Source of the DNA: a virus | Virus record (IMG/VR): IMGVR_UViG_3300030380_001715 | Location: 1 to 33,156 of that record | Length of the DNA stretch: 33,156 nt | Direction: 5' to 3' (one strand) | Shown here: one piece after another, positions 10,244-10,804 of the stretch | How the letters are laid out: each line of letters begins with the position of its first letter | Position numbering within the stretch: the first letter of the stretch is position 1 | Translations under genes and position numbers: made by a program | Notes under the pieces: model-generated | The model's database searches: none | Seen by the model: only the letters and a program-made list of their open reading frames with translations | Told to the model about the DNA's origin: nothing

Positions 10244-10410
10244 TGGCAAAAGTAAAAAAAGGATTTCATAAAACTAAATCAGGTAGAGTTGCAAAAAAAG
10301 GTTTGTACTACTACATGAACAAAAGAAAAAAAGCTGGAACTAGCAGAAAAGGTAAAGGAACTGTAACTGCTAAAGCATTAAAGAGATCAGCAAAAACTGC
10401 TAGATCATAA
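10243..10410 (+). CDS. 55-residue basic protein
   Basis: One-base overlap start. Lys/Arg/Gly-rich with a central GLYYYMNKRKKAGTSRKGKG segment (residues 20-39) and an Ala/Lys tail. Similar small proteins with a YYYMNKRKxAG motif recur in marine phages (memory). It is the last gene before the non-coding integration region, so the transcript probably ends at the terminator at 10655-10694. Confidence 0.6.
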   Translation: MAKVKKGFHKTKSGRVAKKGLYYYMNKRKKAGTSRKGKGTVTAKALKRSAKTARS

Positions 10411-10526
10411 CCGATTTGGTGCAAGTCTTAATTGCAAGTCTGATATTATCAGAGGGGTAGCTTTCGCTATGTGGGAGGGAAAATAATTCTCTTGTATTCT
10501 GTTTCCAAATAGTTATCGTATTCATA
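10411..10526 (+). ncRNA. Candidate structured RNA upstream of attP
   Basis: There is no coding potential. Three hairpins follow each other: TGCAA / TTGCA with a 7-base loop (about 10421-10437), CTGAT / ATCAG with a 3-base loop (10439-10451), and GTAGC / GCTAT around TTTC (10458-10470). A GGGAGGGAAA purine tract follows. An 8-base direct repeat, GCAAGTCT, overlaps the first hairpin. It sits in the 3' region of the basic-protein transcript. It may instead be part of the attP arm. Confidence 0.3.
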
Positions 10527-10553
10527 ATGTCTAAGAATACAGTAAGAATACAA
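10492..10553. repeat. Left set of AGAATACAA 9-mers (candidate integrase arm sites)
   Basis: Three copies: an inverted copy TTGTATTCT at 10492-10500, AGAATACAG at 10534-10542, and AGAATACAA at 10545-10553. The last two are direct repeats on 11-bp centres, one helical turn. An extra partial inverted GTATTC lies at 10518-10523. They flank the tRNA-derived core on its left, as arm-type binding sites of tyrosine integrases do. Function inferred from position and phasing. Confidence 0.55.
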
Positions 10554-10585
10554 AAGTATAAATTTGACAAAGAAAATAAGACAAT

Positions 10586-10631
10586 CCTATTGATTACAAA
10601 TCAATTGCTCTACCAGCTGAGCTACAAGGGC
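10586..10631 (-). other. attP: attP core: 5' half of tRNA-Thr(UGU)
   Basis: On the minus strand these 46 bases read as a tRNA 5' half: acceptor strand GCCCTTG, TA, D-arm GCTC/GAGC with an AGCTGGTA loop, anticodon arm ATTGA-TTTGTAA-TCAAT with anticodon TGT, then AGG. After that the match to a tRNA stops; there is no T-arm or 3' acceptor. A tRNA fragment beside an integrase gene is the classic signature of the phage attachment core. The identity covers the 5' half, whereas most phages carry the 3' part. Confidence 0.85.
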
Positions 10632-10643
10632 ATAACGAAAAAC

Positions 10644-10672
10644 CTTATATATATAGCCGAATTAAATCGCAA
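10644..10672 (-). promoter_or_regulatory. Leftward promoter-like sequence aimed at the tRNA half
   Basis: On the minus strand there is a -35-like TTGCGA (10667-10672), a 17-base spacer, and a -10-like TATAAG (10644-10649), placed 12 bases before the first tRNA base. After integration this could drive the hybrid tRNA-Thr made of the phage 5' half and host 3' half. It overlaps the stem of the rightward terminator. The match is by eye. Confidence 0.5.
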
Positions 10673-10694
10673 GATTTTTTTCGGCTCTTTTTTT
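10655..10694 (+). terminator. Rho-independent terminator
   Basis: AGCCGAA (10655-10661) pairs with TTCGGCT (10680-10686), and inner AAATC pairs with GATTT around a GCAA tetraloop; the two are separated by a 2x2 T/T internal loop. The stem is followed by CTTTTTTT. It should stop rightward transcription from the lysis/basic-protein operon before the integrase promoter. Confidence 0.8.
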
Positions 10695-10744
10695 GTGCCT
10701 GGACTATTCGTTTTATGGGGATTTTTTTGGGTTCTCATTAGACT

Positions 10745-10764
10745 AGAATACAAAGAGAATACAA
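10745..10764. repeat. Right pair of AGAATACAA 9-mers (candidate integrase arm sites)
   Basis: Two perfect direct copies at 10745-10753 and 10756-10764, again on 11-bp centres and in the same orientation as the left pair. With the left set they bracket the tRNA core, as the P and P' arms would. Confidence 0.55.
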
Positions 10765-10804
10765 AATTGTTATACATTTCTTTGCCAAACACCTTTTTAT
10801 ATTC

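Follow-up and report, generated by a model that had tools for sequence, protein, structure and literature searches.

Candidate attP of a pelagiphage-like record pairs the 5′ half of SAR11 tRNA-Thr(UGU) with a putative phage promoter

Positions 10534–10766 of a pelagiphage-like virus record probably form the attP of a temperate SAR11 phage beside its tyrosine integrase gene, and the phage promoter within it, TTGCGA-17-TATAAG, would transcribe the hybrid tRNA-Thr rebuilt upon integration; this probability applies jointly to the whole of what we consider the best explanation. Phages and islands using tRNA genes almost always spare the host promoter. A phage that takes over the 5′ end has to provide for the transcription of an essential single-copy tRNA itself; its lysogens would rely on viral DNA, with loss or mutation of the prophage promoter expected to be lethal to them, and the system offers a clean test of how elements protect the expression of their target genes.

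Anatomy of the candidate attP region and its host gene

The window (the whole stretch of DNA analysed, 33,156 bases) is one entire IMG/VR virus record (IMGVR_UViG_3300030380_001715). It is a pelagiphage-like record: pelagiphages were its nearest annotated relatives in DNA comparison, and its portal protein best matched that of Pelagibacter phage HTVC106P (62%). Judged from sequence, its host would be SAR11. The integrase gene adjoins the tRNA-half core, as expected of an attP (Table 1); its product carries the RPSE arginine motif, the YFFRH motif and the tyrosine (YIK), kept in all or nearly all aligned relatives, and a search among annotated phages found no close relative of it. Repeats of AGAATACA flank the core on both sides, as for arm-type sites, and are considered putative integrase sites.

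Table 1 Features of the candidate attP region in the window.
Feature	Position	Strand	Basis or remark
Putative arm-type integrase site AGAATACAGTAAGAATACAAAA, one side of core	10534..10555	+	Direct repeat D1
tRNA-Thr(UGU) 5′ half, acceptor strand through anticodon arm to AGG; attP core	10586..10631	-	GCCCTTGTAGCTCAG...TTGTAATCAATAGG, 46 nt
Leader, 12 nt, -10 box to tRNA	10632..10643	-	Comparison of relatives; length constant, sequence variable
-10 box TATAAG	10644..10649	-	TATAA in all 31 distinct type I attP sequences
Intrinsic terminator, strand opposite tRNA	10655..10694	+	Folding; stem 10655-10686, T tract 10688-10694
-35 box TTGCGA, inside hairpin	10667..10672	-	Sequence comparison
Putative arm-type integrase site AGAATACAAAGAGAATACAAAA, other side of core	10745..10766	+	Direct repeat D1, 86% identical
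Tyrosine integrase, 398 aa	10861..12057	+	phrog_1 integrase, E 1.3e-28; family alignment
Phage flank ATTGTCTTATTTTC			Expected beside host 5′ half at the rlmB-side junction

The first-pass annotation had described a tRNA-Thr(UGU) 5′ half ending at AGG on the minus strand, a TTGCGA-17-TATAAG promoter 12 nt before the first tRNA base, and a terminator in the other direction on the same stretch; all three were borne out. The half is identical to SAR11 tRNA-Thr(UGU), the coordinates give exactly these spacings (17 nt between the boxes, 12 nt from TATAAG to the tRNA), and the plus-strand hairpin has a folding energy of −15.7 kcal/mol (z −5.35), equalled by 0 of 200 shuffles, and is followed by TTTTTTT. 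ARAGORN found no complete tRNA in the window, and the Rfam tRNA match at the half fell below threshold (27.9 bits vs. a gathering value of 29). An Rfam match to Bacilli-1 in the window was likewise below threshold and was rejected. A simple promoter and terminator scan of the window listed neither element, owing to its fixed rules; the promoter was missed because TATAAG lacks the final T. The boxes match the promoter consensus at 9 of 12 positions, and an equal match at that position arose in 6% of shuffles (P about 0.06). By this match alone the promoter is ordinary for such AT-rich DNA and not significant, which is weak evidence; the case for it is built on the comparative evidence below, not on the consensus match.

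A separate block of about 70 nt (CCGATTTGGTGCAAGT...TCTGATATTATCAGAGGGGTAGCTTTCGCTATGTGGGAGGG; 10408–10480, plus strand), with two small inverted repeats, follows the last small late gene. It is nearly unchanged in contigs L002–L006 and recognisable in L191; the small genes preceding it differ.

Alignment of the core to host genomes had been set beforehand as a test of the annotation. We found the 46-nt core to be identical in at least 113 SAR11 loci (113 among the 120 stretches listed, from single-cell and metagenome-assembled genomes), and in those 113 listed loci the host tRNA opens with GCCCTTG and runs on into the SAR11 3′ half (TCCGCGGTTCGANTCCG). The gene was single-copy in 11 of 11 informative SAR11 genomes. 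The window sequence past AGG showed no match to the host tRNA, so the phage would restore the 5′ end of the gene and not the 3′ end; in ARAGORN, the phage 5′ half joined to the host 3′ half gave a complete, normal tRNA-Thr, and the phage sequence alone gave none.

The host flank upstream of the gene, compared in the same way, differs from the phage cassette, which argues against simple capture. In 96 native host copies the tRNA follows rlmB, usually about 40 bp past where the match ends, and has a promoter-like region of its own; the window's terminator-promoter cassette (type I) had no match in 135 host loci (0.95 Mb). Both the lack of a match in these loci and the different promoter region of the 96 native copies speak against the reading that the cassette is functionless host flank captured by imprecise excision. 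Nothing in type I favors that reading; what can be said for it is a short AT-rich similarity to host flanks in another cassette, type II, where this lies beside tRNA-Thr. We give it next to no credence.

Conservation and natural variants of the cassette

We scanned viral contigs for the hairpin/−10 sequence, with downstream sequence not a selection criterion, and found the cassette in 36 viral contigs; downstream of it, a tRNA 5′ half followed nearly always, at the same distance. The type I set comprised 31 distinct attP sequences, among which 19 different upstreams were represented. Every one of these attPs has TATAA at −18 to −14, the hexamer always ending 12 nt before the tRNA, and the variable leader bases are those at −12 and −6 to −2. 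Between representatives, mean identity was 88% over the 62 nt upstream, and the flank past the anticodon arm was 38% identical ungapped or 56% gapped; the integrases of cassette-bearing phages ranged down to 31–37% identity with that of the window. Past the anticodon arm, none of the members with a tRNA half had sequence related to the host; these members thus carry the 5′ half and not the 3′ half, and the phage upstream promoter region was unlike that of the host and conserved among the elements. This comparative evidence makes the promoter credible.

The 12-nt leader of L131 (6719–6730) reads TTTTTTTAACTT vs. GTTTTTCGTAAT at the same place in L144, constant in length; apart from the leader, the two contigs are identical over several hundred bases around the attP. 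Leaders were also common to otherwise different phages.

The main alternative holds that the cassette is a recombination site (IHF- or Xis-type bending) together with a late-operon terminator, that the promoter match is incidental, and that the tRNA is read from inside the prophage. A site for an integrase accessory protein would likewise be expected to keep a fixed distance from the core, and this counts against our explanation, as does the shuffle P of about 0.06 for the promoter match alone. In L004 and L005, moreover, the tRNA half has been lost and the hairpin is kept, pointing to a role of its own; however, TATAAG vanishes in exactly these two contigs. The terminator acts on the other strand and accounts for −62 to −24, but not for TATAA at −18 to −14. 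Depending on the phage, the core lies anywhere from roughly 0.2 to over 1.7 kb from int, indicating that the overall attP geometry is not rigid, and unrelated hairpins occur in the same place, which a sequence-specific protein site would not permit. We consider this alternative rather unlikely.

These unrelated hairpins were found by an integrase-based search without selection for the cassette: in integrase relatives, three unrelated cassettes (II, III and IV) occupy the same place. Type II (TTGGCTT...AAGCCAA) lies before Thr or Asn and is an opposite-strand terminator by folding; type III is likewise one by sequence inspection, and type IV is less clear-cut. The −35 and −10 boxes of cassettes II–IV are weak or not clear-cut. 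No recognised tRNA half was found in the contigs of some integrase relatives (e.g., L198, L199, L208, L219, L222, L232 and L244). Type I itself also stands before a second tRNA; in L153, L168 and L253 it precedes a tRNA-Asn half, 42 nt of which are identical to SAR11 tRNA-Asn.

Behind the same cassette, L131 (6731–6805) and L144 (5137–5211) carry a complete tRNA-Thr, with a 5′ half equal to that of SAR11 and a diverged, well-paired 3′ half without CCA; integration of either would yield two complete tRNA genes. These two contigs lend some support to the reading that the window holds a decayed phage tRNA gene, once complete with its promoter, for which attP function is secondary or absent. Against it, every subfamily has a half that stops at the anticodon arm, past which the sequence is unrelated; tRNA-Asn halves occur too, and arm repeats and an integrase belonging to the same family adjoin the half; furthermore, the 5′ half stays identical to the host, whereas the 3′ half of L131 matches it at only 16 of 27 positions. 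We regard a decayed gene as very improbable. Taken together, the variants fit a promoter required by tRNA transcription, and an incidental match fits them poorly.

On a broader reading our judgment is evenly balanced: terminator, promoter and fixed-length leader may constitute a portable tRNA-rescue cassette, retained and swapped between tRNA targets within a large SAR11 phage family, with several unrelated origins and a counterpart in SAR11 islands, takeover of the 5′ end of essential tRNA genes being regular in this lineage rather than exceptional.

Proposed integration and searches for lysogens

We propose crossover by the integrase in the anticodon arm of tRNA-Thr(UGU), a single-copy gene of the host; this position is suggested by the anatomy of the site. 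At one junction, the host promoter would retain a 5′ half and now read into the prophage; at the other, phage terminator, promoter and 5′ half would come to lie directly before the host 3′ half. The tRNA restored in this way would have host sequence and would be transcribed from the phage promoter. The opposite-strand terminator may keep transcription from reaching the integrase gene: late transcription in the case of the phage, and host antisense transcription in the case of the prophage.

Searches with the integrase protein and an integrase profile, each draw a partial sample of about 390 SAR11 genomes, recovered no lysogen or hybrid junction of the window's integrase family, and the module pattern (2 mismatches allowed) was absent from 397 sampled SAR11 genomes; the profile does recover held-out viral relatives. 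The sole match of the integrase searches, G206, was weak, lay near a tRNA-Met and was of no use as a lysogen. It may be that prophages of this type seldom become stable or do not last; T7-like cyanophages, for example, insert into tRNA-Leu with no stable lysogeny (PMC8776855). From sequence we infer integration at this site by the window's integrase, promoter activity and insulation by the terminator. The promoter donation to the rebuilt tRNA proposed by the first-pass annotation is supported as the likely reading. Its observation that the phage carries the 5′ half, unlike the usual 3′ part, also held, and this geometry is rare: in the Islander study (Hudson, Lau and Williams 2014), a 5′ fragment is displaced in 159 of 3919 islands, vs. 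a 3′ fragment in 3760 (PMC4383910).

Known systems and SAR11 islands

Several known systems share parts of this arrangement. In the 5′-fragment islands of Islander, the element likewise restores the 5′ part of the tRNA and the displaced 5′ fragment stays upstream, but the accessible part of that source gives a count of geometries only and does not describe a conserved promoter/terminator cassette (PMC4383910). According to a review on archaea, a restored tRNA gene in bacteria is, apart from very few exceptions, still under the promoter it had before; where pTN3-like elements take the 5′ half, the tRNA is read from the integrase promoter, and the review describes such a situation as seldom encountered in bacteria (PMC8371274). 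The pTN3-like integrases of Thermococcales resemble the window in targeting the 5′ half and in a restored tRNA read from the element; unlike it, they are archaeal suicidal integrases whose own gene is split and whose promoter reads the tRNA (PMC8371274), whereas the window has a dedicated cassette pointing away from an intact integrase gene. In the tRNA-dependent lysogeny of actinobacteriophages, phage DNA and a phage promoter also compensate for a disrupted essential single-copy tRNA, but a short core leaves the tRNA unrestored, and that of the host is replaced by a complete separate phage tRNA (PMC10865867). The window does not belong to that class, as its 46-nt core rebuilds tRNA-Thr and it holds no complete tRNA; L131 and L144 look intermediate between hybrid rebuilding and tRNA-dependent lysogeny. 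The pelagiphages of Mizuno et al. (2013) likewise come from the sea and carry an integrase along with a fragment of a SAR11 tRNA, their host assigned by attP/tRNA identity, but the half carried and the expression of the tRNA are not discussed in the accessible part of that paper (PMC3861242). In the open-access subset of the literature, we found no report of a conserved terminator-promoter cassette travelling with a 5′ half. The new part is this conserved cassette with the 5′ half, serving two tRNA genes; elements restoring the 5′ end are known but rare.

Promoter replacement of this kind at the same gene is seen in SAR11 genomes, through another element. A displaced 3′ fragment lies downstream in 23 host loci, which is the usual arrangement, and a displaced 5′ fragment lies upstream in three (L056, L085 and L093); a further displaced 5′ half lies about 10 kb from the intact tRNA in single-cell genome AG-422-D23 (G001). 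In L085 and L093, both from single-cell genomes, rlmB, the native promoter region and a displaced 5′ half are followed by a 4.1-kb insert and then by the intact tRNA, which has new upstream sequence (TTGATTTAATTGACTTTTAACATTAAAAACTT...); variants of this sequence precede the tRNA in other SAR11 loci without rlmB there. If the single-cell assemblies are correct, these two loci show that promoter replacement at tRNA-Thr(UGU) exists in SAR11 cells. A search of viral contigs did not recover the upstream element of the islands, and the inserts read (L056, L085, L093 and G001:C2:91552-103620) showed no integrase; the SAR11 island element differs from the phage of the window.

The SAR11 tRNA-Thr(UGU) gene is an insertion hotspot, a single tRNA gene invaded from both sides. 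By ORF reading, the cargo of the inserts includes ABC-transporter-like and tripartite-transporter-like genes and a cytosine methyltransferase. A contig titled as a Flavobacteriales MAG (L071, JABGVU010000053.1) has a SAR11 tRNA-Thr with an upstream region like that of the SAR11 islands, and is probably a mis-binned SAR11 contig.
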